This document shows, in pieces, positions 18,315-52,243 of a stretch of 64,000 nucleotides of DNA (position 1 is the first letter of the stretch; each line of letters opens with the position of its first letter). The stretch is taken from contig CM033118.1 of NCBI GenBank assembly GCA_019321725.1, forward strand, positions 9,140,071 to 9,204,070, in the 5' to 3' direction. The position numbers and the translations under genes were made by a program. Source of the stretch: Paulownia fortunei (Eukaryota > Streptophyta > Magnoliopsida > Lamiales > Paulowniaceae). The notes beneath the pieces were generated by a model. It was not told the DNA's origin and ran no database searches. It saw only the letters and a program-made list of their open reading frames with translations.

Positions 18315-18315
18315 A

Positions 18316-18362
<47 letters not shown>
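18315..18362. repeat. (AT)n(AG)n microsatellite
   Basis: About 13 AT units followed directly by about 10 AG units. Confidence 0.95.
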
Positions 18363-19965: not shown

Positions 19966-20484
19966 AAATGCATAATTATGAAAAAAAATGTTATACCAAA
20001 ATTTAAACCACGATGTTTAATAATATAAAATATGCATTAATATTTAATCAATGATAAAAAAAATACATATGAAAATAACTCCTCTTGATTTTTTTTCTAA
20101 AAGCGTACAATAACATTTACAATTGAACTTGAATCTTCCATTTTATTATGAAATTATGCAAGTGCAAATTCATGAATCAAATTTAATTATAAAAGTCTAA
20201 TTATTCTATATGAAATTAATTTATACTTCTTATGTTGTGGAAGAGACTACAAAATTTATAATTTGATTTCTTTCATTTCTTTTTTTTTTTATAAAATTAC
20301 TTATTGTAAAACATAACTACCAATTACCTTTTCTAAAAGTTATGCTTTTTTTTATCTTTAAATAAATTTCTCTAAATTTTTTTATTAAATAAGGAAATGT
20401 GGTTGACAAAGACTTAAACCTCAATGTGCAAATAACCACTTAAATTTGTTATGCATGATCTGACATAGTAAACTTAAAGATAAA

Positions 20485-21545: not shown

Positions 21546-21599
21546 TTATGAAAAAAAGAAAAAGAAATGTTATTTTTAATCTCTCCATTTTTTAATCTC

Positions 21600-21636
<37 letters not shown>
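21600..21636. repeat. (TG)n microsatellite
   Basis: About 17 uninterrupted TG units. Confidence 0.95.
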
Positions 21637-21638
<2 letters not shown>

Positions 21639-22029
21639 GTGGACTCCAACAGCTGTGAGGTTCTTTTTATCTATGAAGTTGATTTAATTTTTTAAATTAT
21701 ATACATGATATTGGTTGTGAAAATTGATAGTTAAGTTATTATTATTTTTTTGTAAGGTCAAGCTTTTTTTTTCTCTGAATCGATAAATAGTAACATTATT
21801 CTAACAATATGATATAATTTAATTTTAACAAATGAAATAGTGTGAAAATTTGAAAGAAAAATCAAAAGTGAATAAAGTTAAAAGTGTATACCATGTCATT
21901 ATGAGAAATCTAGAAGACAAATTATAAGGGTTTCACTCAATAGGTTTGAATTTGATATTAACGGTGAAACTGGGTATGACTTAAAATATTTGTAAAAATT
22001 CAATTACTAATGCGACTTTCATGAGAAAA

Positions 22030-22480
22030 TATGAGTACCAAAATGATATGTACTCTTCAAAATTATTATATTATAGTACATTACAGGTTTAAGTATTATT
22101 ATAAAAATATGTAGATGTTTATAATAAAATGAAAAAAAAGTTGGAAAAAGTGTTTTTTTGTAGTTCTTTGTACTATATTTTTTTAGTTATGTTTGTAACT
22201 TTTTTTTTTTTAGTTACATTTCTTTGTTGCAGAGAGTAAGGGAGAGAAATGGAAGGTGGCAAGATGAATAAGTAAGGAATAGACATGATTATAGTTTATA
22301 TTTTTTAATTTAATAACTAGTAATTATGAATAAAATCATCAAGTTGTGCTTGGTTTTGATAAAATAATAATAATAATTTATTTGAAGATTTTTAATTAAA
22401 CATAATATTTATTGGTTATTTGTTAATTCTTCTCTTGATTAATTATAAGTATTACTTCAATTGAGAAAATTGAATATCAT
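22030..22480. repeat. Diverged direct repeat, partner of 24480-24900
   Basis: Shared order of motifs: GGTTTAAGTATT or equivalent, TAATAAATAGTAATTATGAAT-like, a TGCTTGGTTTT stretch, then TTTATTGGTTATTT followed by TTCTCTTRATTAA. The two copies are strongly diverged. Confidence 0.55.
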
Positions 22481-22756
22481 TACAAATAATTAAAAAATTA
22501 TTCATCATAGCTTAGCAGTAAAGTTACTCGTGGTAATAAATGATGCACTTAAAGCGTTGTATATGGTAATATATTTTGGGAAGTCTATAGATAAATTGGG
22601 ATAAAAGTACGAAATTAAAATTGTTATACTATCTATTATAGCTCTAATCAGTAATTATTAAATAGTCAAAAAGTTTTCGGACTTTATCAAGTTCAAAGTT
22701 GTACTTTAATACAACACAAGTTTTTCTTTTCAATCTGAATCTCTTATTTAAAAGTT

Positions 22757-22986
22757 GGCAATTTGTATTCTTTCTATCATAATTCTTTGAATAATTTGAC
22801 TTTTTAAATAAAATAAATTTCACATAAAACTCAGGCCACATTTATTTTCATTTCCATAAAAAATCTTTATTGACAATTTGTATTCTTTTTATCATAACTC
22901 TTTGAATAATTTGACTTCTAAAATGAAATAAGTTTCACATAAAACTTAGGCCACATTTTTTTATCATTTCCATAAGGAATTTTTGT
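22757..22986. repeat. 115-bp tandem pair
   Basis: CAATTTGTATTCTTT...CTTTGAATAATTTGACTT...TTTCACATAAAACT.AGGCCACATTT is repeated with a 115-bp offset and few differences, so it is younger than the surrounding duplications. Confidence 0.85.
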
Positions 22987-24479
22987 ATTTTTTACTATTT
23001 GAAACTCCAAAATATATTTGTTTTATCTATTTTTATTAGAAATATAATTTATTTTAATATTTTTTTTAAATCTACTATCATTTTACGTCTTTTTATATAA
23101 AAAATACTTTAAAATAAATATATTTTCATTTCCAAACCTATATACATATATAAATATAACTAATCCAAACACATGCTCATTTTTACATGAAAACTTAGTA
23201 AAATTACTTTCAGCCACAAATATACTAAAAATATGAAAATGAGTTTAAAAATAAAATCAAACTAGCTCTTAGATTTGGAGAGTTTTCCAACCATAGATTA
23301 TGGCATATAGATGACAGAGTTATCATCTTTTAAAATTGATCATTTTGCATAGTTGTGGATTTATATTTTCTCTAATTTGCTCACCAATTATCCTATTCCT
23401 ATTATAATTTCAGGAGAAAAAGAAAAAATGATTTACAACATAAATGAAAAAAAAATATAAGGTTAGTTCCAGAAGCTTAGAAGCTAAATAAAAAAAAATT
23501 AATCATAACATAACCAGAACAATTAAGATATTATTAAAAGTTAGAATAAAAATCATTTTGGTACTCAAGTTTTTGTTATTAATCTCAAATTGATAGATTA
23601 GTTTTTACAATACTCTAATTGATACCCAAAATTTACCATAAATGTTAGATTTATCTACATTGGTTGGTCTTCATCCAATTCTTCATTGGGAACTTTTTAT
23701 GATTGTAAACATATATTTTAAACACTTTTTTAATTTCAATTATCCATTTAGTTTCCACGATAACTTTGATTGATTAAATAAATACTATAATAATATAAAT
23801 GTAAAAACTGAATATATTATTTATTTACAATATACAAGCATGCCAATAAGAAATATAAAAGTTTATAGTAAATTATAAAATTAAAAATTAAAATACACCC
23901 AGATGAGAGCAATAAATTTGAAATTGAAATTTATGAGTTGAGTTTTTATAATTGTAAAAGTTGAGATTTTAAGAAAAATACTAGCGAGAATGAGAAAAAT
24001 ATATAGGCCTAATCAATCGGAAGAAAAGTTAAAAAAAAATTAAAATAGAAAGATTAAAAGTTTGTTGAAGCAAAAACATTACCATTAACATCTGAATAAG
24101 GATTTAGTGTAACTTCCACAAATTAAATTTTAGATCTCACCTCATAAATTTTAGTTTGAAGATTATTATTCTTTCTTTAAGTATATTATAATTTAACCTC
24201 TTTTATTTCATCACAATCTTTTAATATCTTACTTTTATGATCATAGAGAATGTTAAATATATGTTATCAATATGAAAATTTAATCTAAACAAATAAAATA
24301 TAACATGAAAATTGAAGGAATTAGTGAATAGAGTTTAAAATGGTATATGTCACTTTAAAAGTTTTAAAAAAAAAAACTAAAAGGGCTTAAGTCAATAGAT
24401 TTAAAATTTATAAAAAACTCAAATATAATTTAAACCATTTGTGAAGATTAAAGTACCAATTTGGCATTCATAATAAAAA

Positions 24480-24900
24480 CTCAGATATCAAAATAACTTT
24501 TACATTTAAAACTTATTGGTTTATAATGCATTATAAATTTAATGTTCGTGATAAAAAAATCTACGTAGCTGTTAATAAAAAAAAATAGATAAACAATTAT
24601 TTTTATAGATTGTTCTTACTACAATTTTATTTTATATTTTTGATTGTGATTATATTTTTTTATTGGAAGGAGTAAAGACATGAAAATGGATAAGTGAAAT
24701 CGGTAAATAGATGAATAATCTTAGCATTAATATATTTTTCAGTTAATAAATAGTAATTATGAATTATATCATTATGGTATGCTTGGTTTTTGTAAATTGA
24801 TAATATTTTAGTTTATGGTAGGTTTTATCATTAAACGTGATATTTTTATTGGTTATTTCTAAATTTTCTCTTAATTAACTATGAATATTACATTGATTAT
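24480..24900. repeat. Diverged direct repeat, partner of 22030-22480
   Basis: Second copy of the unit described at 22030-22480. No coding capacity or terminal repeats were seen. Confidence 0.55.
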
Positions 24901-27789
24901 ATTTATCAATTTTTAACATTTGAAAATACTCAATGGTCATAGACAATCCGTTGCAATCACCATGTATATAATAATATAATTTAAAAATTGTTAGAATAAT
25001 TTTACAGTAAAATTTTGATAATTTATATTTCATTTCATTAAGATCTTTTAATCCTTTCTATTTTTTTTGATGATTAACTAGATGTGCATACTTAGTATTA
25101 GTTCAATGTTTACTAACTCTTTATAATTTTTTTTAAATTCTGCATCTATGTGATTAGTGTATTGCATAAATTTTAGATTATATCCTAATATTATAAAGAT
25201 TGTTTAAAATTTTAATTTACAAATTTGTATTTCCTTCATTATTAATTTTTTTTTCATTTTAGAATAATCGAACCTAAGTTAGTGCATGTTTAGTGTAGAT
25301 TATTTTTAATTAATTCTAATAAATTTATTTAGCCACATTTACGTAATCAATTATTTGGTTAATTTGAAAAGGATGAGTAAAAAGATAATTTTGACACTTG
25401 ATTAAATAAAAAATAAAGATTACAAAAGAAATATAAATTCGAATTTTCAATTAAGCACATTTGAATAAGAGAAAAATATTCTTTATAGTGGACTTTTAAT
25501 ACTTTTGATTGATTTTACATTTTCAAATTGATTATAAAAAGTCAAATAGATTATTAGATATTGTTTAATAGATTTTAAATTAATCTTAATTCATTAATTT
25601 AAATCTCTTTTTCGTACAATCTTTTCAAAAGAAAATATTCTAAACCAATTAGACCATCAATTAAATTTGACAATTTTAAATTCCATACTGATGATTATTA
25701 AAATTATAAATTATTTTATAAAAGATGATTTATGAGTAGTAGACATATGTAAAGAAAACTATAAAATAAGTTTATTTAGGTTAAGAACGGGCCTCTTTTA
25801 TGATAATTTTATTTTTTAATTTAAAAAAATAATATTTATTAGCATATAAATTAAAGGTTTTAAATATTTTATTTTTAAGGATCACATAACTATTAAGAGA
25901 TCCTGTATTCCTTCCAAATTATGAACAATTCTCAAAAAGTATTTTATTTTTAAAAACAAATTTCAATTATTTGTGTTGATTGAATTTATTTTTCCATTCA
26001 TTGCCTTAAATGTTTAAAACATTTAATCAATCAAATTCGTAAGTCATGCAAGCGAGGTCATATATTTAAATCATTGTAGTTTTTGCAAATAAGTTACTTA
26101 TACCTTCATTTGGAATATGATTAGGGTGTTTTTTTTTTAAGAAAAAAGTAGTTGCAATTAAAAATTGGTAAAAACTAACGAGAATCAAGTTAAAAAGTAA
26201 AAATATATTATTTTTTATGTTTTTTATCATTAAATTTCTCTATTGTCACAGTGTTATACGTGAAAAAAAAAATGAAGCTTAAATTGTCAACTTTTTTTGT
26301 AGTAACTACTAAGAGGCAGTAATTTATGATTTTTTTTATTTTTTTATTTTTGACTGTGTACGTACAACTTATCTCCCTAATTTTGGGGGAAAAGATCATA
26401 GCTTTTCTTTCTTAATTAGAATCTTCTCTCTTTTTCAGATTATGTAAAACTGTATAATGATGAATTTACAGATTATGGCTATTTCTTCAAATCATAGATT
26501 ATATTACTACCCATCCATTTGAAGGAATAAGCCGTCCAAAGAGTGATTCCTCAAAACATAGGCAAAGATTTACTTTAAATTAATTTTTAACAAGAAATAA
26601 TAAAATAAATTTTAACTTCATAAAAATATAAGTCGGTTCGGACTCAATTCATTTATATTTAACTTAGTAAATATAAAAATTTAATGCTTATATTATACTC
26701 ATTTATGTAAAATTAGTAGTGTAGACCTTATACAAAGCAAGAGAATGGAAAATTTAAAATTAATTTTTTTTTGTGAGAGTTAGAATTAACTTTACATATT
26801 AAATAGGTATATATAATTTTTTAACATATTGTTGTAAAAGTATTAAGCATCAATGTTTTGCAAGTTGGTCTTTGCTTCGCCATTTCCGTAGTCTGAATCC
26901 TCTTAGCCTCATTTATTTTCTTTAAGTTCGACTTTGGCCTCATTTAAAATGAGATGAGCTCGAGCTCGATCTCATTTTCTATTTTGAGCTCGAATTTCAA
27001 AAATTAGGTTTATTTAACTTGACTCGTTTATCCTTAATTTGGGGATTGTACAATTAGTACGAGATATTGAATTCGAGTATCACCAATATATACGTACATT
27101 AGCGAGTACATTTTGATAGCAGTGTCTTTCCTTTAAATATATACTTTGATTTAGAATTAAGATTCTACTTAATTAATCTTTGACATCTTGCTATACTGAA
27201 TGGTGTAATTGAAGGTTTTTTTTAATTATATATGACTCCATATATATGTACGACTACTTAAATATGTAATTAATTATTTGTGTGATATTTGTGAAGTGTA
27301 GTGTAACAATAGAAATTTCATGAATACTCGAGACTCAATACTTTGTATCAGTTATTTGATTTTACAATTATTTAACGTAAAATCAAGGTCAAAGATTTTT
27401 ACCAAAAGAATTTTATCTAGAATGAACCTTTTTTGTTTTTTTTAAGATTTTCATCAAAATGTAGTATTACTAGTGAGAAGTGTGTGTTATGTGTATTACG
27501 TGACTTAATTTTGGAATGCAAGTATGTTTTGCCTAGTTTAGAATCAATATGAATAATGAAAGTTTTTATCAATTATTATATGCTCAATTATTTTCTTGTA
27601 TATGTTCTGTAGGCAAACACTGCAAATATATACCAACTATTCAAATGCATTAAATTTAAAGTAAAGGATAATCAGAGGATACAAATGGGACATAAGCTGC
27701 AGGATACAACGACCACCACCACCATCATAATCATCATCTCAAGGGTGCTGATTGAAAGAAAATAGTGCTCAACAAAAGAGCACGGGAAA

Positions 27790-27862: not shown

Positions 27863-29002
27863 TATAGTTGTCACTTGATTGGTTAGAACCGATTCAACCC
27901 AGACTCGACTCATCAAGAATTGGCCGAAGGCCGGCTTATGAATAGTACGTGCTAATTGGACCAATTTTAAACATATAATTTGAATTCTTATTAGGCCCAT
28001 ATATTAAAATTCAGTCCATACATATGAACCTGTTTAGATACGAAATCATTTCAAAATTGGCCCACCATAGGACTGGCCGGGCCTGATTCTTAATAGTTGG
28101 GCTTTTTTATATATATAATTCATATATAGATAAAAATAATATGAAGAAGCCAAAAGAATTTTTTTTGGGCATATGGCTAAGGATTTTTTTTAATAAGTTT
28201 AAAAATCAAATTTTTTCTAAAATATAAAGGTAAAAAGTAATTATACTACTTAAAAAAATATAATTTTAGTTAGTATACTAAATTAAAAAATTATCAAAAT
28301 AAAATATAAAGTTAGAAAAGAAGTATATTACTAAAAAAGTAAAAAAGTACTTAGTATACTAAACTAAAAAAATTTGATCAAAATAAAATATAAAGTTAGA
28401 AAATAAATATATTACTAAAAAAATATAATATTACTTAATATACTAAATTAAAAATAATTCATCAAAATAAAATATAAAGTTAGAAAATAAATATATTACT
28501 AAGAAAATATAATGTTACTTAATATACTAAATTAAAAATAATTCATCAAAATAAATTATAAAGTTAAAAAATAAGTATATTACTAAAAATATATAATACT
28601 ACTTAATATACTAAATTAAAAAAAATTATTAAAATAAAATATAAAATTAAAAAATAAATATATTACTAAAAAATATTATATTACTTAATATATTAAACTA
28701 AATAAAAATTCAACAAAATAAAAAAACCCATCAAAATTCATAAAAGAGAAGTCCACTGGGCGAACCCATAAACCCAACCTGTAGGCCTAGCTCATATAGC
28801 CCATCCAGGCGTAGAACCGATCCACTAGAACCAAACTAGTGGAGTGAGGTGGGCCTACAAAAAAAAAAAAAATTATTCACCCCAACTCAAACCGCTTTAG
28901 GTCCGGACTTGGGTTTGAATAACCCATTTTTCTGGCGGGGCAATGCGGTCTTGGGTCGGTCCTGGGCCGGTCCTAACTAGACCGACCCAGTTGATAACTA
29001 TA
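27863..29002. mobile_element. Non-autonomous hAT-like element (1140 bp) with 8-bp target duplication
   Basis: Left end TATAGTTGTCAC; the reverse complement of the right end is TATAGTTATCAACTGG, giving imperfect terminal inverted repeats. Flanking 8-mers GTAGATAT (27855-27862) and ATAGATAT (29003-29010) match at 7 of 8, the hAT target-site size. Both subterminal regions are GC-rich with GGCCGG, GGGCC and GACC motifs, in contrast with the AT-rich centre, which holds the 84-bp minisatellite. No transposase reading frame was found, so mobility would need a partner element. Confidence 0.75.
28190..28725. repeat. 84-bp minisatellite, about six copies, inside the hAT-like element
   Basis: The landmark TATACTAAA (TATATTAAA in the last copy) recurs at about 28273, 28354, 28439, 28523, 28607 and 28689, a spacing of 81-85 bp. 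Each unit contains AAAATATAAAGTTAGAAAATAA-like sequence and ATATTACTAA. Copies differ by scattered substitutions. Non-coding. Confidence 0.92.
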
Positions 29003-39738: not shown

Positions 39739-40175
39739 TGTTAAGATCAACTTGTATATATTTTGATGATGAGTAAGTTACTCTAGGATAGATCCTTAAT
39801 ACTTTTGAAAGATTTTTTTGTTTATATAAGACCTTTGTAAAGGCTACACTATTAGACAGTATTCAAAGAAGACTTAGCCTACAAAACAGAAAAGATGAAG
39901 AAGAGCTCACAATCAGAGTAGTGATGAAGAGTTCAAGATTGAGATGGAAAAGTCCAAGATTGGAGCAGAAGGCTTAGCAGGGCAAAAATGTTTCAACAAA
40001 CATGAGGACTGATGTAGTCTAGTGAGAATTTAAAGTCACTAAAAGACCAGTGGAGTCAGCCACATCCGATGAGCTAAATGACAAATAATGAGATTCTGAG
40101 AAGTGGTCGAGTCCAAGACTAGAGTAACGCACTTAGCAGGGCTAAGCATAACGACATAGTGGAGTAATGTGTACC
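39739..40175 (+). repeat. Copia (SIRE-like) 5' LTR, first part
   Basis: Begins TGTTAAGATCAACTTG, the kind of start seen in long-LTR copia elements, and runs to the insertion point of the Athila-like element. It continues at 52244 after the target duplication GTACC/GTACT. Confidence 0.7.
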
Positions 40176-41783
40176 TGCTACAACTTTAAGGTTGCAAACT
40201 CAAGTGCAGGTTGTAGTCAGTAATAAATTTCTCGTGAGTCCGAGGTCGATCCACAGGGAAATTGTTTGAAGAATTCAAGTTTATATTTCTAAAAAGATGG
40301 AGTTTATGTGAATCAAAATATATGAACAATTAATGTATGATGTAACTAAAGAAAAACTGAAGTAATAAAAGTACTGAGGATTAGGGATCTACTCTTGAGT
40401 TTTGGATAAAGAAATGGTTATTTATTCTTTTTACCTCTATTAATTGCCACAATTGGAATCCATACATAATGAAGGTTTCAATGGGAAGATATTATCAAGT
40501 AACTCATGCAATAAGGTAATCATGATATTGTCTTACTATTACAAATTATCTCTTAACGCCAACACTTATTTATGGAATCAAGCATTTATGTATACCTTCG
40601 TCAACAACAAATCAAGGTTTCACATTAGCAGTCGGTGGGGTAAAACCGTACAATAAGCTAAATGAACCCAAGTATTTATTGTGCCATTGGAGATACATAA
40701 ATCAAGAATCAGCACAAAACAAGTAGGGTTTAGATCAAAAATAAAAAATAATACAACATACTTAAACAATTTCTACCCTTATAACCATTTCTCTTCCTAC
40801 ATCAAGAGATTCACCATTTTTCCTCAGCAAAATAAAATTTAGAAAGATATAATAAAAGTAACAAAGACTAAAAATATAAGAGAAACTAGAGAATGCATTT
40901 CTATTACTACTAGAAAACTTACAATACTAGAAAATATACAAACTAGATAACTTAGCCTAAAGAAACCCTCTATCCCCCTCCTTACAAGCTTAATATATGG
41001 CCTATTTATAGTACTTGGAGTAATCTAGAGGCCAAACAAATAATAGAGGGGTTAATCAAGTGGTATGCTAGTTGCTAACAGTTGGTAAGTTGTTACATAA
41101 ATTTCTCATCCACTGAATTAAATTACATTTTTCGGTCAGATACAGCCAGATTTTGAAGATACGTGAAGAATCAAAATTGTAGATCTTTCAACGCTGATAT
41201 ATTTTCATATATCTTTTGTCAAATTTGGCAATCGGATGAAGGAGATATGGTCAAATTATCGAGTCATGTCCAAGAACCGCCCTGTAACATCAGCAACAAC
41301 TTGCAGCCTATGGTTTTACCATTTCGACACATTTTCACACCATCTTGTCTTCAGCAAACTTGTTTATTTACCTCTTGGGTATAAGATATCTAAATTTCAG
41401 ACCAAAATAAATTTGGGCTCAAGATATATAATCGAATTGGTAAAATAAGTCAATACTGGGCTGAACTCTGATCTGAATTTTGGTGATCCATTTTGTGCAA
41501 CTATTTGGATGAATTTTCTGCTATCATCAAAACTAAATTGGGCTGAGCCTCCAACATAAAAGTTGTACCTCTATCTCTTGGCTTTTAACTGAAATAAGCT
41601 TTAGGTCCATAGAGCTTTTGATCATGAAATTATGCTCAAATTACAAAAATTGCATAAGTTTGGAAACATGCTTCAATTTATTCCCTAACACAAAACATTA
41701 ATAAAACAATAATATTAACAAGAATAAAGCAAGAAAAGTATAAAGGATTTGATACAAAAATATGTCAAAATATTCACTTATCA
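40176..41783 (-). repeat. 3' LTR of the Athila-like element (1608 bp)
   Basis: Plus-strand ends TGCTACAACTTT...CACTTATCA. Compared by eye with the other LTR, I count about 12 substitutions and 4-5 small indels, concentrated in the first ~290 bp and in A-rich runs; most of 40900-41640 looks identical. Short open frames inside (for example 41163-41384) occur in both LTRs and are not considered genes. Confidence 0.97.
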
Positions 41784-41798
41784 AATTCCCCCACACTT
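41784..41798 (-). promoter_or_regulatory. Polypurine tract (plus-strand primer site)
   Basis: The minus strand reads AAGTGTGGGGGAATT directly before the 3' LTR start TGATAAGTG. This is the expected position and composition for second-strand priming in an LTR retrotransposon. Confidence 0.9.
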
Positions 41799-43539
41799 AA
41801 CCCTTGCTTGTCCTCGAGCAAGTTTAAAACAAATATAAACTAATCCACTTTCGTAGGAAATCACGATTCCATTTAGCATATGCAACAAGCCTTTAAACCC
41901 CTAGGTGGCCCATAGAGGACGAGTTGTAGTCTTGTGAAGGTTTCCAGCAGTGATACCTACAAACACCTATAATAATTATCTTCCAACTTTTATTCTCATG
42001 AAGCAACAAAGTAATATGAAAATAAAATCAAACAAATGTTGAGTTTAACTCTTAGTCATTCAAAAATCAATATATTTCCACAATAAGCATACTCAAGTGT
42101 GTGTGTGGACAGTTAATGTCAATAGTGATAAAACTATGCATGTTTCAAATAAGTGAATTCTCATAAAACCTTGCAAAAACCATCACCCAATCTCTAACAG
42201 AAAAGTTAAACATCATAGGCTCTTCCTTTGGTGCAAATCTTCACTACACTGAAGTCACCATATGAAATCAAAAGGTCTTCAACAATGGTTGTAATGGGGC
42301 CAAAGTGTGGTAATGTAGCTAAGAAATAAAAGGATAGGTTGCAACAAAGGTTCTAAAAACTTCATGGAATTAGAGATATAAAATTTATCGATGAAGAATT
42401 TTCCAACTCCACAAATTTCACACTGGAGTCTATTTTTATTGAATTGGACCCATCTTATTCATCTTGCAACATCTCATTTTTAGTTGCAACTTGTAGCACT
42501 TTGTAACTTTTTTTTCTTTTCTTTTCTTTTTTTTTTTAAAAAACTCCCCCACACTTATCTTCTATTCCAACCTGAATTTCTTTTGTAAGTTCAAGCTGTC
42601 AATTGAATGTCTCTTAAACTCCAATCATTTTTAGAACAAGGGTTGGATAATAGTGTATTTAGGGTAGGTAAAAAGATTGGTTACAAAAAAATAATTATTT
42701 ATTGTATGGCTCAAAGTGGTTTACTAAAGGGATGTTTTCTTGAAACATCATATAGGAAACAAGCTGATTTGACAATGGTGCTAGAAAGCCTAATGCCTTA
42801 ATCATTTTTCTAGTGGTGCACTATCAGTCGTTCGCCTCGACAAACCAAAAGTAAAAGTTCTAATACTCAACCCCTACATGTTGAGGATTCAAGTGATGAT
42901 TAAAGCAAAGGCATAAGAACTATCTATTTTGACATAATTGTCTTCACACTAAATAACATAACTATTTGTGCAAAATAAAATTTGAGTATAATTATCGCAA
43001 AAATATATTAACCAAATAACAACATCAAAGTCCAAAACAACACCCATCATCAATCAAACCATATTATTCATGCTTAATTTTAATCATTGAAGTTGGAAGA
43101 ACCTATACAACTAAAAAAAAAAAAAAAATTGATAATTCACAAACATTAGTTAAAAACTTTACAAACCTGCCATGTTATGCAAAAAAAAATTAGGAATGCG
43201 TCTCAAGAGTGTTACAATTACCCTTTACTTAGCCATCTTTTTTTTTCATGCTTTCAACGGACCCAAAAAAAACACGCTTGATTTATATTTATTTATTTAT
43301 TTATTTATTTTTTATTTATTTTTTATTTTTTATTTTTTTAGTAAATACTAGAAAAACACACATTGAATATACAAGTCATGATATCAATTATCCCTCCTCC
43401 CAACCTAATCGAGACATTGTCCACAATGTCAAAAATAGATAGGAAAGTAGAGTTTGAAAGATATCACCTGAAATGCGGCTAATGAAGCTGAAACAAAAAA
43501 AAAATACATACTATTAGATAAAATTATTAACAATAAGTA
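41799..43539 (-). other. Long 3' non-coding region of the Athila-like element
   Basis: About 1.7 kb between the LOG-like frame and the PPT with no supported gene. It contains a second PPT-like tract (42542-42556), a T-rich run (42510-42537) and an (ATTT)n tract (about 43280-43340). Confidence 0.7.
42542..42556 (-). promoter_or_regulatory. Second polypurine-tract-like sequence
   Basis: The minus strand reads AAGTGTGGGGGAGTT, differing from the terminal PPT (AAGTGTGGGGGAATT) at one base. It is about 750 bp further inside, beside a poly-pyrimidine run. It could be an extra priming site or the scar of an earlier 3' end. Confidence 0.6.
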
Positions 43540-44169
43540 TCACAAACTGAGAGTCAAATTCAATTTGCGTTTTCGACCATTGTTCCTATTGGACCAATCC
43601 ACATTGGCCAAGGTTGGATCAGGTTTTGGCACATATGCTAGAAGTTGATCAATTAGCTGGTCAGGTGTTGGAGCAGAAATGATGATTCTTCTCGCAGAAG
43701 TTGAAATAAACCCTTTTTTCGCAGCATGATCTACAAAAGATAGCAAACCATCATAAAAACCATTAACATTAAGAATACCTATAGGTTTTTGGTGAATGTT
43801 GAGTTGTGCCCAAGAAACAATTTGGAATAATTCCTCCAATGTACCAAAACCGCCAGGTAGAATGATGAATGCATCCGCATTGTTTAACATGTTAGGCATT
43901 CTGTCCTGAATATGTGACACTTTTAGCTCATCTCCAATGGTCATACCTGTGATATTCTGTACTGTTAAAGATTTTGGGATAACTCCCAAAACTTTGACAC
44001 CTCATACATAAGCAGAAATAGCAACACTCCCCATTAACCCCAAACTGCCTCCCCCATACACTAAATGAATTTTTCTTTCTGCTAAAGTTCTACCAAGGTT
44101 ATTGGCTGCCCTTATAAACTCACCATTTTTTCCTAGATTGGATCCACAAAAAACACAAATGGAATTAAA
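43540..44169 (-). pseudogene. LOG-like cytokinin riboside 5'-monophosphate phosphoribohydrolase captured in the retrotransposon (one in-frame TGA, no clear ATG)
   Basis: The minus-strand frame of 209 codons spans essentially a whole LOG protein without introns, although plant LOG genes normally have several. LOG enzymes release active cytokinin bases from the nucleotide form. Motifs: ICVFCGS (4-10), LVYGGGSLGLMG (36-47), GVIPKSL (62-68), an Arg at about 90, LPGGFGTLEEL (104-114, the LOG signature PGGxGTxxE), GILNVNGFYDGLLSF (131-145), FISTSARRIIISAPT (154-168). A TGA at 44002-44004 interrupts it at codon 56 at what is a Gly/Arg-rich site in the family; a single C-to-T change could explain it. 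The upstream frame has no ATG before a stop. The C-terminus is basic then leucine-rich (GRKRKLNLTLSL), resembling a nuclear localisation signal followed by an LxLxL EAR motif. Same strand as pol, downstream of integrase. Confidence 0.9.
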
Positions 44170-44332
44170 TTTGCGAGTTGAAGAAACTTCTATTTTTTTT
44201 TCTTTTTTGAAAATAAGTTGTGCAAAAATAGAGTGAGTACGGTGATATTTATTGAGGTGTGAACAGGGAATGCATTTATTGCATGTCTTTTTCTTTTGTC
44301 AAAAAGGTTGAAAATAAGGACACATACGAAAT

Positions 44333-44986
44333 TTAAAAATTACCTACTAACAAGTGTATGTACATGTAGTTGTGATTGTGGCTTACATCTTCCTCTGGTT
44401 TTATGTCCAGTAATGGCTTAAACGCCCTCTATGGGTCGAGGATATGCTTTCCATTCAGTTTTCTTATAAACTGGCAAACAGGGTCATTTAATGTCAGATT
44501 CCCAAGACTATAAAGCTCATATTCATTTCGAAAACGATCTCATAAATCAAGAATTGCATGTTGTACCAATCCACATGAATGCGTCTCAAAAGTCAATATA
44601 ATATGATCTAAAGACTCCTTACTCATTCCATCCATAATGAATTTAAGTTTATCTTCTCGATTTTTAGAGACCATTCCTAAAGAACGACACTTTGTGTTGC
44701 AAGTCCATCTAGCACAAATATGACAAACTTTCATTTTTTTCGCCCTTCGTTTTTTTGAATATGTGCTTTTACCAAAACCAGACATGTATCTAGTAAGCAA
44801 ATCTGGAAACTCATGTGAAAACTCACCTGCCCTTACCTTTGCTTCAATTATCCATCGTATGTCCTCCGGAATGCCCTTGTGCATAAGCATCCTCAATCTT
44901 TCAATCCTGATTTTATAAATTTTTAAAATTGCATTTTTAGGAAGAAAAGGAAATCGCTTCTTGAGAGTTAGAAAAATGTCACCCAT
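44333..44986 (-). pseudogene. Viral NABP-like (Betaflexiviridae-type) cysteine-rich reading frame carried by the retrotransposon; two in-frame stops
   Basis: An ATG at 44986-44984 opens a 148-codon frame to a TGA at 44542-44540. The same frame continues with protein-like sequence through a TAG (44431-44429) to a TAA (44335-44333), about 217 codons in all. Around residues 73-100 it has KSTYSKKRRAKKMK and then a Cys cluster spaced C-X2-C-X4-C-X3-C (residues 88, 91, 96, 100), followed by EDKLKFIMDG. A basic stretch joined to a short Cys finger and a charged tail is the layout of the small 3'-proximal nucleic-acid-binding proteins of vitiviruses, trichoviruses and carlaviruses, several of which suppress RNA silencing (established knowledge). 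The relation here is judged from motif layout only. It lies 3' of integrase, where Athila elements may carry env-like genes, but I see no membrane protein features in the frame after the ATG. Confidence 0.68.
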
Positions 44987-45189
44987 TTTGAAAAGAATAA
45001 GAAAAGAGAATGAGAAAAATAAAGAAAATTTGTACAAAGATTTCAGTTGATTGGGAAACTGACAAGTTCGATTTTTATAGCCACAGAGTACTGTTATCCG
45101 CCATTTAACCGGGAAAAAAAAAAAAAAAATAAAAGAAGAAGAAGAGAAGAAAAAAAAAATAATGTCAGATAAAAAGAATATATACAACA
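44987..45189 (-). promoter_or_regulatory. Leader of the cargo region with TATA-like box and pyrimidine-rich tracts
   Basis: Between the integrase stop and the NABP-like ATG, the minus strand has long T/C-rich runs (about 45170-45110), then CTATAAAAAT at 45080-45071, then another pyrimidine-rich leader up to the ATG. TATA-to-ATG distance is about 90 bp, a plausible plant promoter and 5' UTR. The pyrimidine runs could alternatively act as splice acceptors for a subgenomic RNA. Confidence 0.45.
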
Positions 45190-46584
45190 CTAATCATAAC
45201 AAGGGTTAGAAAGAAAAAGGATTTCCTCTTGTGAAAATTGATTTTCTAGAAATGGTTTAACTATTTGTCCATTTACTTTGAATATGTTACCATTTCTAGG
45301 ATTCTCAATGTCAATCACCCCATAAGGATATACTTTTTTTACAACAAAAGGACCACTCCACCTTGATCTCAATTTTCCAGGAAACAAATGCAATCGAGAA
45401 TTATAAAGCAAAACCTTTTGACCAACCTCAAATATTTTTCTTGAAATTTTATTATCATGAAAATCTTTGATTCTTGCTTTATAAATTTTAGAATTCTCAT
45501 ATGCATCATTTCTCAGTTCTTGAAGTTCATTGATTTGCAATTTGCATAATTTTGAAGGTTCATCAAGGTTGAAGTTAAACATTTTGATTGCCCAATAAGC
45601 TTTATGTTCAAGTTCAATAGATAAATGACAAGGTTTTCCATAAACTATCCTATAAGGAGACATGCTTAATAATATTTTGAAAGCAGTTCTGCATGCCCAA
45701 AGTGTATCGGTAAGTTTAAGAGACCAATCTTTACGGTTTAGGTTAACTGTTTTCTCCAAAATTTGTTTTATCTCCCTATTTGCAAGTTCAACTTGTCCAT
45801 TTATCTGAGGGTAATAAGGGGTTGCAACTTTATGTATGATTCCATATTTCTTCATTAAAGTTCTGAAAACTTTGTTACAAAAATGTTTTCCCCCATCACT
45901 GATAATAGATTTAGGAATTCCAAATCGACTTAAAATATTTTCTTTCAAAAATTTTATCACTATTTTGTGATCATTGTTTCGACAAGGAATTGCCTCGATC
46001 CATTTTGAAACATAATCTATGGCAACCAATATGTAAAGAAAATCAAATGATAATGGAAATGGCCCCATAAAATCAATACCCCAACAGTCAAAGATTTCAA
46101 TCACTAGGATAGGGTGTAGGGGCATCATATTTCTCTTTGAAAGGGACCCTAACTTTTGACAATTTTCACAACTTTTGCAGAAAGTGTAAGTATCTTTGAA
46201 AAGAGTTGGCCAATAAAATCCACATTGCAAGATTTTTGCAGTAGTTTTTTTTACAGAAAAATGACTACCACATGCTTCTGAATGACAAAATTTGACAATA
46301 TTACCTATCTCATTGTCAGGCACACATCTTCGAAAGATTTGATCCGGACAATATTTGAATAGGTATGGATCATCCCAATAAATTTTTTTAACCTCAGTCA
46401 AAAACTTTTTTTTGTCTTGAGAGTTCCAATGCGATGTCATCTTTCCTGTCACAAGAAAATTAACAATGTCAGCAAACCAAGGTAAAATAGAAACGTTAAA
46501 TAATTGTTCATCAGGGAAAGTGTCATTAATAGGTGTGGTTTGAAACGAGTCATCACAAACAAGTCTCGACAAATGATCAGCCAC
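45190..46584 (-). CDS. Athila-like integrase (with end of RNase H), open 464-codon frame
   Basis: The frame begins in the RNase H/integrase linker (ADHLSRLV). The zinc-binding region is degenerate around CHSEACGSHF ... FCKSCENCQKLG. The catalytic core shows WGIDFMGPF, ISDGGKHFCN and GQVELANREIK. The spacing from the second Asp to the Glu is exactly 35 residues (D,D35E), so all three catalytic acids are present. The C-terminal part has KIFEVGQKVLLYNSRLHLFP and LRSRWSGPFVVKKVYPYG. The frame ends in a TAG at 45190-45192. It is uninterrupted, unlike the rest of pol, but upstream it is separated from RT/RNase H by an in-frame TAG near 46624, so it would not be made as part of a full polyprotein from this copy. 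Confidence 0.93.
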   Translation of the reverse strand: MADHLSRLVCDDSFQTTPINDTFPDEQLFNVSILPWFADIVNFLVTGKMTSHWNSQDKKKFLTEVKKIYWDDPYLFKYCPDQIFRRCVPDNEIGNIVKFCHSEACGSHFSVKKTTAKILQCGFYWPTLFKDTYTFCKSCENCQKLGSLSKRNMMPLHPILVIEIFDCWGIDFMGPFPLSFDFLYILVAIDYVSKWIEAIPCRNNDHKIVIKFLKENILSRFGIPKSIISDGGKHFCNKVFRTLMKKYGIIHKVATPYYPQINGQVELANREIKQILEKTVNLNRKDWSLKLTDTLWACRTAFKILLSMSPYRIVYGKPCHLSIELEHKAYWAIKMFNFNLDEPSKLCKLQINELQELRNDAYENSKIYKARIKDFHDNKISRKIFEVGQKVLLYNSRLHLFPGKLRSRWSGPFVVKKVYPYGVIDIENPRNGNIFKVNGQIVKPFLENQFSQEEILFLSNPCYD

Positions 46585-46623
46585 TATATTCTCTACTCCC
46601 TTTTTATCTCGAATAGTAATATT

Positions 46624-48186
46624 AAATTCCTAGAGTAAGAGAATCCACCTAATCAGTCTTGGTTTACCATCTTTTTTTGACAAAAGATATTTCAAAGCTG
46701 CATGATCACTGAAAACAACAATTGGTGAGCCAACAAGATAAGATCGAAATTTGTCCAATGCAAAAACTACAACAAGTATTTTTTTTTCAGTTGTTGTATA
46801 ATTCAATTGAGCACCATTTAAAGTTTTACTTGCATAGTAAATAACATATGGTTTTTTATCTTTTCTTTGTTCCAAGACCGCTCCAACAGCATAATCACTA
46901 GCATCACACATTATTTCAAAAGGTAAAGTCCAATCTGGAGGCTGCATGATTGGAGCAGACGTAAGCATGCTTTTAAGCTTAACAAAAGCATTTTCACAGT
47001 TTTCAGTCCATTCAAAAATAGTGTCTTTTGTTAGAAGATTACACAAAGGTTTAGATATTATACTAAAATCTTTGATAAATCTTCTATAAAAACCAGCATG
47101 TCCTAAAAATGATCTAATCTCCTTCACAGTCTTTGGTGTTGGCAAATTGGCAATTAACTCAATTTTAGATTTATCAACCTCAATACCTTCTGATAATATA
47201 ATGTGTCCAAGAACAATACCAGTTGTTACCATGAAGTGACATTTCTCCCAATTGAGCACAAGATTCTTTTCTTCACACCTGATCAAAATTTTTTCTAAAT
47301 TAGATAAGCAATCATCAAATGAATTGCCAAAAACAGAAAAATCATCCATGAAAACTTCAAGAAAATGTTCAACCATGTCACTAAAAATACTAAGCATGCA
47401 TCGTTGGAATGTAGCTGGTGCATTACATAATCCAAAAGGCATCATTTGATATGCAAAAGTACCAAAAGGACATGTAAAAGTTGTTTTCTCTTGATCTTCA
47501 AGTGCAATTGCAATTTGATTATACCCAAAATATCCATCTAAAAAGCAATAAAATTTATGTCCCGTAACTCTTTCTAAAATTTGATCCATGAAAGGTAATG
47601 GAAAATGATCTTTTCTAGTAACTGAGTTGAGTTTTCTATAGTTAATGCACATTCGCCAACCAGTAACAGTCCTAGTTGGAATTAATTCATCATTCTCATT
47701 CTTGACTACAGTAACTCTAGATTTTTTAGGTACAACTTGGTAGGACTTACCCATTTGCTATCAGAAATAGAATAAATGATTCCATTATCTAAGAGTTTAA
47801 TGACTTCATTTCTTACTACTTCTTTCATATTAGGATTTAGCCTTCGTTGCATTTCTCTAGATGGTTTAACATTTTCCTCTAGATAGATGTTATGTGTGCA
47901 AATGAAAGGATTAATACCTTTAATATCAGCAATGGTCCATCCTAAAGCATTCTTATGCATTTTCAAAGTTTCGATCAACTTACCTTCTTGAAATGCATCG
48001 AGTTTGGAAGAAATTATTACTGAAAAAGTCTCATTCTCACCCAAGAAAGAGTATTTCAAATTAACTGGCAAAGGTTTCAATTCAACCATGGGAGCTTTAA
48101 TACTTGATGGAATAGATTTTTCTGTTGATGATGAAAGTTTTTCGAACCTTGGCTTCCAAAAATATTTTTCTTGTACCTGCAAAAAT
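46624..48186 (-). pseudogene. Athila-like reverse transcriptase and RNase H, broken by a frameshift and a stop
   Basis: The N-terminal part (about 48186-47760) includes ALGWTIADIKGINPFICTH and LNPNMKEVVRNEVIKLLDNG. The frame shifts near 47750. The main RT block then reads [53 protein letters not shown] and [10 protein letters not shown], where MDD replaces the YVDD catalytic box as is usual in Athila. RNase H follows with [18 protein letters not shown] and [12 protein letters not shown]. The frame stops at a TAG near 46624 just after RWILLL; similarity continues into the integrase frame beyond it. Confidence 0.93.
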
Positions 48187-48894
48187 TCAGAGATAGTTAT
48201 TAGTTTGTTCCTTTCTATAAATACTTTCACTTTCAAAATAAGTCTCCAAAGAATCTGAAGAGTTAGTAGTAGTAAAGTATTCATGAACAAGTTCCTCAAT
48301 AGAATCCACTTCATATACTTCGACATCTTCTGCAGGTTGCATACAAACATTAAACACATTTAGTTCCAAAGTCATATTTCCAAATGATAACTTCAAAATA
48401 CCATTTCTACAATTGATCAAAGCATTTGAAGTTGCAAGAAAAGGACGACCCAAAATGATAGGAATTTGTATATGTGTTTGTGCAACAGGCTCTGTGTCCA
48501 AAATAATGAAATCAACTGGAAAATAAAACTTATCAATTTGTACCAACACATCTTCTACTATTCCCTTTGGAACTTTAATCGAACGATCAACTAGTTGGAG
48601 TACAACAGAAGTTGTTTTAAGTTCTCCCAAACCTAACTGTTCATAAACTGAGAAAGGTAGAAGATTTACACTAGCACCAAGATCAAGCAAAGCACGCTCT
48701 ATTCTAGTGTTTCCTATGATACATGAAATGGTTGGACAACCTGGATCTTTGTACTTTGGTGGAGTGAATTGTTGAATGATTGAACTAACACTTTCAGTTA
48801 AAAATGCCTTCTTTTGTACATGATGTTTTCTTTTGATTGTACATAAATCTTTCAAAAATTTGACATAAGGTGGAACTTGCTTGATTGCATCCAA
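48187..48894 (-). pseudogene. Athila-like protease region
   Basis: A 235-codon frame containing ALLDLGASVNLLPFSVYEQLG, the Athila-type aspartic protease active site, then VDFIILDTEPVAQTH and IPIILGRPFLATSNALINC with the flap and ILGRPFL motifs. It ends in a TGA at 48187, where a one-base frame change separates it from the RT part. It is preceded by a gag-protease linker whose frame is also shifted. Confidence 0.9.
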
Positions 48895-48939
48895 TAATAG
48901 AATATTAATCTTGACTTGTTTAAAAATTTCAAAATTTCA

Positions 48940-50445
48940 GCATTTGAGTTCAATTTCTGAGTTGCTTGCAATCTTTGAGGAAAGGGTGCTGGAGGTAAAT
49001 ATTTTTCTTTTTCATCATTTTCACGCTTACCTTCTTCAAACTTACCTTTGTCGTCAAGACTATTTCCATTTTTCATTTCTGGAGGTGGATTAGAAACTTT
49101 CTCCTTGGATGAATAGTCTTGTCAACAACTTTTCCATTCCGAAGAGTTGTAACTGAATTAGCCTCCTTGACTGCATTTTCACTTGAAGAAGAAACATGAC
49201 ACTGAGTAGAAGGATTAGGTTGAGGTTGAGAAGGAAATTTACCTTTTTCATGAGTACGCAAAGAAGTTGTCAGTGTTGAAAGTGTGCTTTTGATCTCATT
49301 GATAGCTTGTGAAGTCTGATTATTGATGTTTGTTTGTTCATGCATAAATGCTTGCAAAGTCTCCTCAATGGATTTTATATGTGGAGGTGGATAAGAATGA
49401 AAGTTTTATGGTTTTTGTGAATGCAGTGGTTGGGCACGGTTATCATCTCGCCAACTGAAATTGGATTATTTCTCCATTGTGGATTGTAAGTTTCAGAATA
49501 TGGAGAATGGAAAGGTTTTTTGAATGTGTTCATAAAATTTGCTTGTACTGGAATGTTTGAACATTCATTGGTGGAGTGCCCCAAAATTTCACAATTGCTA
49601 CAAACTTCTTCCTCTTGTACAAATTTGATTTCCTTTACTTTTTTAAGTTTCATGGCTTCAACTTTTCTTGTTAAACTAGCAAGTCTAGCATTTAGATCAT
49701 CTTCTGGGCTAAGGTAATATTTTCCTTTATTACTATTAGCAAGATTAGATCTAATAGAACCTTCGGAAGAATTAACACTATGCCATGATTGTGAGTTTTC
49801 TGCCAAATGATCTAGATATTCTAGGGTTTCATCAGGTTCTTTATCAAGAAACTCACCATTACACATTGTTTCAACAAATTATTTTGTTTCAGGAGTCAAA
49901 CCTTCATAAAAGAAACTAATTAAGCGTCATTTTTCAAAACCATGATGTGGGCATGAATTCAACAAATCTTTAAATCTTTCCTAACATTGAAAGAAAACTT
50001 CATTCGAATTTTGAGAAAAATTTTGAATTTGTCTTTTCAAAGCATTAGTTTTATGAGTTGGAAAGAATTTTTTCAAGAATTCAGCTTGCATTTCTTGCCA
50101 AGTGCCAATTGACCTAGGTTTTAAAGAATTAAGCCAATTTTTTGCTTTATCTTTTAAAGAGAAAGGAAATAATTTCAGCTTAACAATCTCATTTGTGCAA
50201 GTTTGATCATCAAAAGTGGCACATACTTCATCAAATTCTTTTAAATGCAAGTAAGGACTTTCAGAGTCTAAACCATGGAAATTAGGAAGTAAAGGGATCA
50301 TACCTGACTTGAATCGAAAATTGTTTGTATTTAGAGGAAAAATGAAACAAGAAGGAGAAGAATTTCGAGGAGGTTGCAAGTAATAACGCATGGTACACAC
50401 TTGTTGATTCTCATTTTCATCCTGGACACTTTCATTTTCAGCCAT
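48940..50445 (-). pseudogene. Athila-like gag, several stops and frameshifts
   Basis: Likely start ATG at 50445 (MAENESVQDENENQQ). The conserved capsid part reads SGMIPLLPNFHGLDSESPYL, IVKLKLFPFSLKDKAKNWLN and MQAEFLKKFFPTHKTNALKR. A CCHC knuckle CSNCEILGHSTNEC is near 49600. The frame is broken by stops at about 49979 and 49920, a frameshift near 49460 with a further stop at about 49410, and another shift near 49075. gag should package RNA and form virus-like particles; this copy could not make a complete one. Confidence 0.9.
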
Positions 50446-50610
50446 GGTGGAAGTGTGTGGAGATGATTCAAACAAAGTTTCGGAATTATTTCTTACTAAA
50501 CGTCAAGAATTATGACTACGATACCATATAACCATATATCCATAAAGAAAATAAATAAACTATATTTACAAAGGAAAAATATTAACAAACCTGAATACTT
50601 ACTTTGCCTT

Positions 50611-50625
50611 CCCCGGTACGCGCCA
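50611..50625 (-). promoter_or_regulatory. Primer-binding site of the Athila-like element
   Basis: The minus strand reads TGGCGCGTACCGGGG six bases inside the 5' LTR. It resembles the TGGCGCCGTTGCCGGGG class of PBS used by many plant gypsy elements and usually attributed to tRNA-Asp, with a few mismatches. Confidence 0.8.
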
Positions 50626-50631
50626 AAAACT

Positions 50632-52238
50632 TGCTACAACTTTAAGGTTGCAAACCCAAGTGCAGGTTGCAGTAAGTAATAAATTTCTCGTGAGTCCGAG
50701 GTCAATCCACAGGGAAGTTTTTGAAAAATTCAAGTTTATATTTCTAAAAAGATGGAGTTTATGTGAATCAAAATATATGAACAATTAATGTATGATGTAA
50801 CTAAAGAAAAACTGAAGTAATAAAAGTACTGAGGATTAGGAATCTACTCTTGAGTTTTGGATAAAGAAATGGTTATTTATTCTTTTTACCTCTATTAATT
50901 GTCACAATTGGAATCCATACATAATGAAGGTTTCAATGGGAAGATATTATCAAGTAACTCATGCAATAAGGTAATCATGATATTGTCTTACTATTACAAA
51001 TTATCTCTTAACGCCAACACTTATTTATGGAATCAAGCATTTATGTATACCTTCGTCAACAACAAATCAAGGTTTCACATTAGCAGTCGGTGGGGTAAAA
51101 CCGTACAATAAGCTAAATGAACCCAAGTATTTATTGTGCCATTGGAGATACATAAATCAAGAATCAGCATAAAACAAGTAGGGTTTAGATCAAAAATAAA
51201 AATAATAATACAACATACTTAAACAATTTCTACCCTTATAACCATTTCTCTTCCTACATCAAGAGATTCACCATTTTTCCTCAGCAAAATAAAATTAGAA
51301 AGATATAATAAAAGTAACAAAGACTAAAATATAAGAGAAACTAGAGAATGCATTTCTATTACTACTAGAAAACTTACAATACTAGAAAATATACAAACTA
51401 GATAACTTAGCCTAAAGAAACCCTCTATCCCCCTCCTTACAAGCTTAATATATGGCCTATTTATAGTACTTGGAGTAATCTAGAGGCCAAACAAATAATA
51501 GAGGGGTTAATCAAGTGGTATGCTAGTTGCTAACAGTTGGTAAGTTGTTACATAAATTTCTCATCCACTGAATTAAATTACATTTTTCGGTCAGATACAG
51601 CCAGATTTTGAAGATACGTGAAGAATCAAAATTGTAGATCTTTCAACGCTGATATATTTTCATATATCTTTTGTCAAATTTGGCAATCGGATGAAGGAGA
51701 TATGGTCAAATTATCGAGTCATGTCCAAGAACCGCCCTGTAACATCAGCAACAACTTGCAGCCTATGGTTTTACCATTTCGACACATTTTCACACCATCT
51801 TGTCTTCAGCAAACTTGTTTATTTACCTCTTGGGTATAAGATATCTAAATTTCAGACCAAAATAAATTTGGGCTCAAGATATATAATCGAATTGGTAAAA
51901 TAAGTCAATACTGGGCTGAACTCTGATCTGAATTTTGGTGATCCATTTTGTGCAACTATTTGGATGAATTTTCTGCTATCATCAAAACTAAATTGGGCTG
52001 AGCCTCCAACATAAAAGTTGTACCTCTATCTCTTGGCTTTTAACTGAAATAAGCTTTAGGTCCATAGAGCTTTTGATCATGAAGTTATGCTCAAATTACA
52101 AAAATTGCATAAGTTTGGAAACATGCTTCAATTTATTCCCTAACACGAAACATTAATAAAACAATAATATTAACAAGAATAAAGCAAGAAAAGTATAAAA
52201 GATTTGATACAAAAATATGTCAAAATATTCACTTATCA
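50632..52238 (-). repeat. 5' LTR of the Athila-like element (1607 bp)
   Basis: Partner of 40176-41783, with the same TG...CA ends. It is followed by GTACT, the target duplication of GTACC at 40171-40175. In the minus sense it drives the element and is followed by the PBS. Confidence 0.97.
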
Positions 52239-52243
52239 GTACT

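Follow-up and report, generated by a model that had tools for sequence, protein, structure and literature searches.

An Athila-like LTR retrotransposon of Paulownia fortunei with NABP-like and LOG frames between integrase and the 3' LTR

In 2011, Steinbauerova et al. reportedly noted two Athila-like elements with similarity to LOGL4. A 2022 study that cites Steinbauerova et al. (PMC9289625) described a LOG (YgdH) domain in consensus Gypsy elements from Citrus sinensis and C. clementina and, with one filter disabled, from Populus trichocarpa; the presence of LOG in Ty3/gypsy elements has thus already been published. The same report describes orchid Ty3/gypsy elements that stably hold an m6A demethylase-type domain. 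In another survey (PMC6317226), the aRH domain marks the Tat lineage, and extra frames were counted only if they had at least 250 codons; because of this threshold, frames of 182-185 and 217 codons, such as those treated here, fall below its count. Viral proteins of the NABP type act as silencing suppressors (PMC12172455), and Bertsch 2009 (PMC2714080) reported the absence of positive-strand RNA virus sequences in the grapevine genome. Among the literature matches listed, there is no report of NABP, or of NABP paired with LOG, in retrotransposons. The first-pass annotation of the present locus was aware of no described LTR retrotransposon with the pair; this stands for the pair within the literature searched, but not for its LOG half, which was already published (PMC9289625).

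The window, i.e. the whole stretch of DNA analysed (64,000 nucleotides of Paulownia fortunei contig CM033118.1), holds a minus-strand Athila-like Ty3/gypsy element at 40176-52238 (Table 1). Its LTRs differ by 13 mismatches (12 transitions) and 5 gap positions against 1595 identities (K2P 0.0081), and the putative primer binding site adjoining the 5' LTR, TGGCGCGTACCGGGGA, resembles a tRNA-Asp complement. Pfam matches give the order gag, protease, reverse transcriptase (RT), RNase H and integrase, followed by two frames matching NABP and LOG, which lie between pol and the 3' LTR, where an env-like gene would fit. Neither a second RNase H (aRH) nor the Athila ORF-1 domain is among the Pfam matches in the element. 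The gag-pol of the window copy is broken and divided among seven listed frames, with an in-frame stop between the RT/RNase H frame and integrase. The earlier description of a recent Athila-like element is borne out by the near-identity of the LTRs and by the domain order lacking an aRH match.

Table 1. Coordinates of the element's features in the window.
Feature	Coordinates	Strand	Evidence
Target-site duplication GTACC	40171..40175	.	4/5 bases equal with 52239-52243
3' LTR	40176..41783	-	LTR pair comparison
Polypurine tract	41784..41796	-	GTGTGGGGGAATT adjoining 3' LTR
LOG (cytokinin riboside 5'-monophosphate phosphoribohydrolase) frame, 217 codons, single exon	43543..44193	-	PF03641 3.8e-35
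In-frame stretch past NABP stop, RAFKPLLDIKPEEDVSHNHNY	44366..44428	-	Conserved vs L029
NABP-like frame, 185 codons	44432..44986	-	Carla_C4 above cut-off, tblastn family span, translation
Conserved non-coding block, integrase-NABP interval	45081..45116	-	L029 comparison
Integrase	45190..46584	-	PF00665 9.6e-17, PF17921 1.5e-12
Reverse transcriptase + RNase H	46630..47754	-	PF00078 2.7e-27, PF17919 6.7e-34, PF17917 4.1e-33
Protease piece	48187..48894	-	PF13650 2.5e-5
Gag piece	49981..50475	-	PF03732 5e-15
Primer binding site, tRNA-Asp-like	50610..50625	-	TGGCGCGTACCGGGGA adjoining 5' LTR
5' LTR	50632..52238	-	99.2% identity with 40176-41783
Target-site duplication GTACT	52239..52243	.	4/5 bases equal with 40171-40175

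The NABP-like frame begins with a start codon at 44986, is interrupted by a single in-frame stop at 44540-44542, and in the family runs on to 44432. The window region 44540-45190 matches the Pfam profile Carla_C4 above its cut-off (1.6e-5; 25.2 vs 20.9) and Viral_NABP below it (0.0016; 18.8 vs 23), while one relative (P0004) passes Viral_NABP at 29.5, and each profile matches 23 of 25 aligned relatives, with best values of 3.7e-8 and 1.2e-8, respectively. The encoded protein is small and basic, with an RRAK stretch and a four-cysteine finger (C-x2-C-x4-C-x3-C), and is most commonly 182 aa long among the relatives listed; the exact finger pattern is missing in 39 of the 135 NABPs of at least 160 aa among the matches listed. 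The LOG domain (Lysine_decarbox/LOG) is matched at 43540-43989 with 121.4 bits against a cut-off of 27, and the window LOG is 97% identical, over residues 1-217, to an intact 217-aa Paulownia protein (P0116), from which it departs by one in-frame stop (44002-44004) and by ATA in place of ATG. The window copy cannot make full-length NABP or LOG. The first-pass annotation had recognized both frames on the pol strand between integrase and the 3' LTR, a placement upheld by the Pfam matches in the window and, as to the order and shared strand of the two frames, by all 45 copies described below. Its identification of the viral NABP-like frame stands on the Carla_C4 match and that of LOG on the domain match, but the limits of both required correction, to 44986-44432 with one stop and to 44193-43543 with one stop and no ATG.

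The pair is not peculiar to this copy. In the P. fortunei assembly, 45 distinct LOG copies were examined, that of the window among them, and each has NABP upstream on its own strand at a distance of 235-463 bp. In 30 copies the matched ends are 235-253 bp apart, the others being partial matches or having longer gaps; integrase lies upstream in 43. This recurrence of the same two frames in the same order puts the matches well beyond chance. An LTR end is readable in 36 copies, and all 36 flanks are distinct, so that the host-genome comparison proposed at first pass does recover multiple insertions with both frames. Seventeen NABP loci had no counterpart in the LOG locus list; six were fetched, and all six have LOG sequence downstream. 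The full-length frame is open in 27 of the 45 copies for LOG and in 14 for NABP. In Orobanche hederae, a gene model (P0099) fuses NABP and LOG.

A first search found 113 NABP relatives, and a profile search found 995 proteins; among the 120 of these 995 that were listed, together with the earlier 113, the named relatives come from Populus, Acer, Xanthoceras, Rhamnella, Parasponia, Orobanche and Paulownia. Both rosids and asterids are represented. IMG/VR scans with NABP and with integrase found no relative, that with LOG gave 28 loci whose best segments are 25-52% identical, and a phage tblastn gave no match. A further relative, on one plant-like contaminant contig from a prokaryote-genome scan (L029), has integrase, then NABP, then 983 bp without LOG. 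Because of this contig, and because no Reevesia NABP is among the matches listed (120 of 995 plus 113), the pair may not be universal.

Among the LOGs of at least 200 aa in the matches listed, PGGxGTxxE is exact in 77 of 94 and missing in 17, the GGGxxGLMG pattern is found in 75 of 94, and the commonest length among relatives listed is 216-218 aa. In 16 chosen relatives, 13 of 14 active-site motif positions are invariant, compared with 41 of 203 elsewhere (p 5e-8), and the LOG of intact copies is likely to be an active enzyme. All 21 sampled element-type LOGs form a single clade (95/97), and joining them to LOG3 gives p 0.03 in the AU test, their age and single origin being judged against two host LOGs only. 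Three proteins clustering with the element LOGs (P0126, P0127 and P0128) carry ordinary LOG names in a database; entries of this kind could inflate reported LOG gene families.

Comparison with L029 also brought out conserved sequence on either side of NABP. A block of about 36 nt in the diverged integrase-NABP spacer is nearly identical in the two, and is in frame with NABP in the window but out of frame in L029. The stretch past the NABP stop shows 6 differences in 22 codons, of which 4 fall at third positions (p 0.10), and three gene models (P0046, P0047, P0072) read through into it; among Paulownia copies it is as variable (0.033) as its neighbours (0.029 and 0.027). A conserved RNA structure was considered for both and rejected, since folding was no better than that of shuffles (z -1.3 and -1.2 for the stretch, 0.0 and -0.6 for the block). 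A splice acceptor upstream of NABP was likewise dropped because the AG of the window is absent from L029.

The dN/dS comparison among copies suggested by the first-pass annotation gives low pN/pS values (NG86; LOG 0.45, NABP 0.46), but control frames are nearly as low: these values lose force in view of shifted frames of LOG/NABP (0.51-0.93), non-coding spacer (0.55-0.91), the integrase control (0.82), and codon-position tests among Paulownia copies that were not significant for either gene. The contrast of singleton with shared differences gives p values of 0.023 (NABP) and 0.13 (LOG), and in older LOG copies (L078-L083) differences from L047 are not clearly concentrated at third positions. 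By themselves, open frames carry modest weight, because a neutral simulation leaves 134 of 1000 LOG lineages stop-free at 64% identity. Constraint appears between lineages: NABP of one Paulownia copy (L033) differs from that of L029 at 42/32/62 first, second and third codon positions (p 0.002; integrase 99/64/211), and the LOG motif is invariant in the 16 chosen relatives.

These observations bear differently on the possible readings. A one-off insertion or assembly chimera confined to the window copy is refuted by the 45 copies with the pair and their 36 distinct readable flanks, and nothing among the 45 copies speaks for it. It is improbable that both sequences are passengers, picked up by one or a few founders and amplified without function: the lack of clear selection among Paulownia copies, the frames not open at full length in 18 of 45 copies for LOG and 31 of 45 for NABP, and the window copy broken in both would fit such cargo, but relatives of both proteins occur in several plant families with common lengths (among the relatives listed, most often 182 aa for NABP and 216-218 aa for LOG) and conserved motifs, and NABP has its third-position excess between lineages. 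We regard it as quite probable that the cassette has been kept because it benefits the element, and the window copy as probably a defective member of an Athila-like lineage in which the two genes form a lasting cassette downstream of integrase and ahead of the 3' LTR.

NABP could serve the element by chaperoning or packaging its RNA in place of an env-like or nucleocapsid function, unrelated to silencing, with LOG independent and optional. This is a serious possibility, though short of an even chance; it suits a small, widely distributed basic zinc-finger protein and the L029 arrangement of integrase and NABP with 983 bp lacking LOG, while the silencing suppressors among viral NABP-type proteins (PMC12172455) and the linkage of LOG to NABP in every one of the 45 Paulownia copies examined argue against it. 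A comparable, minority likelihood attaches to a non-viral origin, whether the basic zinc finger arose convergently or viruses acquired the gene from plants: the match to the viral profiles is confined to the finger and at most about 90 residues, and the present data do not give the direction of transfer. Against this, the two viral profiles each match 23 of 25 aligned relatives, with best values near 1e-8, and the basic stretch stands immediately before the finger. Carlavirus proteins have their basic stretch in the same position, directly before the finger.

In the preferred reading, of a cassette kept for its benefit to the element, the NABP gene would descend from, or share ancestry with, cysteine-rich proteins of carla- or vitivirus-like plant RNA viruses; LOG would have been acquired a single time in the distant past, in intronless form, and retained ever since. 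The element's RNA would yield both proteins; NABP, through its RRAK stretch and finger, would bind nucleic acid, shield or chaperone the element RNA and perhaps weaken RNA silencing, while LOG would release active cytokinin and so favour dividing cells, in which new insertions would be heritable. Both the retained LOG motif and the likeness to virus proteins would fit host manipulation of this kind. That NABP suppresses silencing is possible but somewhat doubtful, and joint action of the two proteins on the host is unlikely. Slightly less likely still is the full proposition that a rosid- and asterid-wide LTR retrotransposon lineage keeps a host-manipulation cassette, in which an RNA-virus-type silencing suppressor or transcription-modulating zinc finger and a cytokinin activator would together bring the host cell into a permissive, dividing state. 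If true, such a cassette would be to transposons what accessory genes are to viruses, woody and parasitic plants would harbour transposons with their own hormone and anti-silencing tools, and the role of Athila extra frames, long a question, would become a direct experiment.

Among known systems, the element resembles the Athila lineage (OTA, non-chromovirus Ty3/gypsy; PMC6317226) in its RT-RNase H-integrase order, with no second RNase H found and extra frames 3' of pol, but ORF-1, the domain that this survey names for Athila, is not among the Pfam matches here. The Citrus and Populus elements share LOG, which the relevant passages of PMC9289625 describe without mention of NABP or of a two-gene linkage; the orchid elements likewise have a host-type enzyme in Gypsy, but a different one, and with no virus-like partner gene mentioned in those passages. 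Element LOGs have the GGGxxGLMG and PGGxGTxxE motifs in common with Arabidopsis LOG3 (2a33) and LOG8 (1ydh), which are 49% and 45% identical to P0116 over a nearly full-length match; unlike these, the element LOG is transposon-borne, encoded in a single exon and present in many copies, and its clade lies outside the LOG3/LOG8 pair. The cysteine-rich NABPs of carlaviruses and vitiviruses (PF01623, PF05515), whose profiles match 23 of 25 relatives, likewise have a basic stretch ahead of a four-cysteine finger; by contrast, the element NABP, of 182-185 aa with the finger C-x2-C-x4-C-x3-C, has its gene in an LTR retrotransposon within plant nuclear DNA.

The window element carries a gag, protease, RT, RNase H and integrase domain order (Pfam), a tRNA-Asp-like primer site and a polypurine tract, and is flanked by 5-mers that match at 4 of 5 positions. 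Across 1608 aligned bases the two LTRs show 13 differences, of which 12 are transitions (K2P 0.0081). Its gag-pol region is broken into seven listed frames, the frames for the nucleic-acid-binding protein (NABP) and the cytokinin riboside 5'-monophosphate phosphoribohydrolase (LOG) contain one in-frame stop each, and LOG has ATA at the position of the ATG of an intact relative. The element is thus young yet broken. The first-pass annotation placed two cargo frames, a virus-like NABP and a LOG, downstream of integrase on the pol strand, and both were located there. The ~1.76 kb between LOG and the 3' LTR contain no listed frame as long as 80 aa. In and beside a gag frame, antisense to the element, is a near-threshold Rfam match to the plant snoRNA snoR71 (49937-50045, + strand; 39.7 bits, gathering 40, E 3.2e-5). 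Elsewhere in the window, G+C falls to 19-22% at 18001-26000, versus 25-38% in the remaining 2-kb steps, and an 84-bp tandem repeat of about six copies occupies 28218-28723.

Coordinates of the retrotransposon and its two cargo frames in the window
Feature	Position	Strand	Basis or location
LTR retrotransposon	40176-52238	minus	two LTRs and internal Pfam domains
NABP	start codon 44986, family end 44432	minus (pol strand)	3' of integrase
LOG	44193-43543	minus (pol strand)	3' of NABP

Searches of the Paulownia fortunei assembly returned first-look candidates, which are not copy numbers: 2486 with the LOG profile PF03641 (150 scored, all 150 over the cut-off), 485 with PF01623, one of two viral profiles matched by NABP (150 scored; at E 0.001 the list has 23, every one over the cut-off, without the window NABP), and 3764 with the NABP protein (150 scored, all at least 86% identical, the window NABP included). 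Linkage was examined in 40 regions from alternate rows of the scored PF03641 list, skipping small-contig rows, and in 8 further loci from the same search; removal of four duplicates (L030, L032, L034, L036) left 44 distinct copies, or 45 with the window, a sample drawn from the best-scoring LOGs and therefore biased towards intact copies. NABP lies upstream of LOG on the same strand in all 45, with a gap between matched ends of 235-253 bp in 30; in the other 15, several with partial matches, the gap is 264-463 bp. Integrase was found upstream of the cassette in 43, and was looked for but not found in L058 and L071. The 3' LTR end is readable in 36 copies, and these represent separate insertions, since their flanking 20-mers and 5-mers all differ. 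A one-off insertion confined to a single copy, the alternative that the first-pass annotation set against its proposal of a host-manipulation module, is thereby excluded. Starting from NABP, 17 of the 23 PF01623-matched loci had no LOG in the scored PF03641 list; six of these were examined, and LOG sequence lies downstream in all six. In one of the six, L080, the downstream LOG is a 38-residue N-terminal match only.

The dN/dS comparison suggested by the first-pass annotation gave low ratios but does not establish selection among copies. Among Paulownia copies pN/pS is 0.45 for LOG and 0.46 for NABP, and lower in diverged pairs, but these values carry less weight because of the controls, which gave 0.51-0.93 for shifted frames, 0.55-0.91 for the spacer and 0.82 for a piece of integrase. 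Shared variants among copies show no significant unevenness over codon positions, nor is a third-position excess clear in the older LOG copies L078-L083 when these are compared with copy L047. The contrast of singleton with shared variants gave p 0.023 for NABP (43 of 45 copies) and p 0.13 for LOG. Between lineages, comparison of Paulownia copy L033 with the plant-like contig L029 gave first-, second- and third-position differences of 42/32/62 for NABP (p 0.002) and 99/64/211 for integrase. NG86 ratios between lineages are 0.185 for NABP and 0.095 for integrase, of a kind that the copy controls show to be biased low. Of 14 LOG motif positions, 13 do not vary among 16 relatives selected out of the 120 listed, versus 41 of 203 other positions (p 5e-8). 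Counting against constraint, exact PGGxGTxxE is missing in 17 of 94 listed LOGs of at least 200 aa, and exact CxxCxRWxCxxxC in 39 of 135 NABPs of at least 160 aa.

Outside Paulownia, NABP relatives numbered 113 by single-sequence search and 995 by profile search, 120 of the latter listed. The named sources are Populus, Acer, Xanthoceras, Rhamnella, Parasponia and Orobanche besides Paulownia itself; of 25 aligned relatives, 23 match Viral_NABP (best 1.2e-8) and 23 Carla_C4 (best 3.7e-8). LOG relatives numbered 4211; those listed, 120 in all, come among others from Paulownia, Rehmannia, Reevesia, Pterospermum and three species of Orobanche, and certain of them belong to clusters that reach 244 members. 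Their copy number suggests that these LOGs are element-borne. Three Rehmannia LOGs that group with element LOGs (P0126, P0127, P0128) stand in UniRef under the ordinary cytokinin phosphoribohydrolase name, which may inflate LOG family counts. The sole evidence of the pair outside Paulownia is P0099, an Orobanche hederae gene model in which NABP precedes the C-terminal portion of a LOG; that portion forms a long, poorly placed branch in a 34-row tree. In L029, integrase is followed by NABP, with no LOG in the 983 bp remaining; LOG may therefore have joined the cassette later or be optional in it. This contig (DAIEQH010000041.1) is filed as a Candidatus Nomurabacteria MAG, yet encodes a plant-type integrase and NABP, and is likely plant contamination.

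In a 25-row tree, the 21 chosen element-type LOGs group as a single clade (95/97) that excludes two bacterial LOGs as well as LOG3 and LOG8 of Arabidopsis; the 34-row tree agrees (94/97). Constraint groups were defined only after the first LOG tree had been seen: joining LOG3 with all element-type LOGs was weakly rejected (p 0.03), Lamiales rows with LOG3 were rejected at p 1e-55, and Reevesia rows with both Arabidopsis LOGs at p 0.001. The element LOG is encoded in a single exon; introns are present in host LOG genes. A single capture of LOG by the element lineage is likely on these trees, rather than proven, because they contain only two host LOGs. Paulownia LOGs stand beside a group of Rehmannia plus Orobanche, the placement that descent along with the hosts would give in view of the relation of these genera.

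Around NABP, ~36 nt before the frame (window 45081-45116; L029 ~1667-1705) are nearly identical in the window and L029, the rest of the spacer not, and next to them comes a short complementary pair (CAGTT...AACTG) that both sequences share; the block folds no better than shuffles. The NABP stop is TAG in all 45 Paulownia copies. The in-frame codons after it are conserved between the window (44366-44428) and L029 (2345-2410), with 6 differences, of which 4 fall at third positions (p 0.10). The stretch is translated through in gene models P0046, P0047 and P0072, and within Paulownia it is as variable as its neighbours. Readthrough of the stop codon, a splice site or an RNA element could each account for the conservation; RNA folding lent no support to a structure. 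Ten-base complementary words, CCCATAGAGG and CCTCTATGGG, occur at window positions 44426-44435 and 41909-41918, one spanning the NABP stop, and could pair within the element RNA.

The NABP and LOG proteins most likely serve the spread of the element. NABP would act by its predicted binding of nucleic acid, and might suppress silencing, since viral proteins of the same type do so (PMC12172455). LOG would release active cytokinin through its predicted activity; if the element NABP acted like its viral counterparts, both would push towards division.

Among the literature matches listed, in a search whose reach excluded subscription papers and supplements, none was found to describe NABP in a retrotransposon, and the available portions of PMC7264820 and PMC11963269 mention neither NABP nor LOG. 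PMC6317226 surveyed extra frames only from 250 codons upwards, a limit that exceeds the length of NABP and of LOG. LOG, as YgdH, is already in print as a component of Gypsy elements (PMC9289625).
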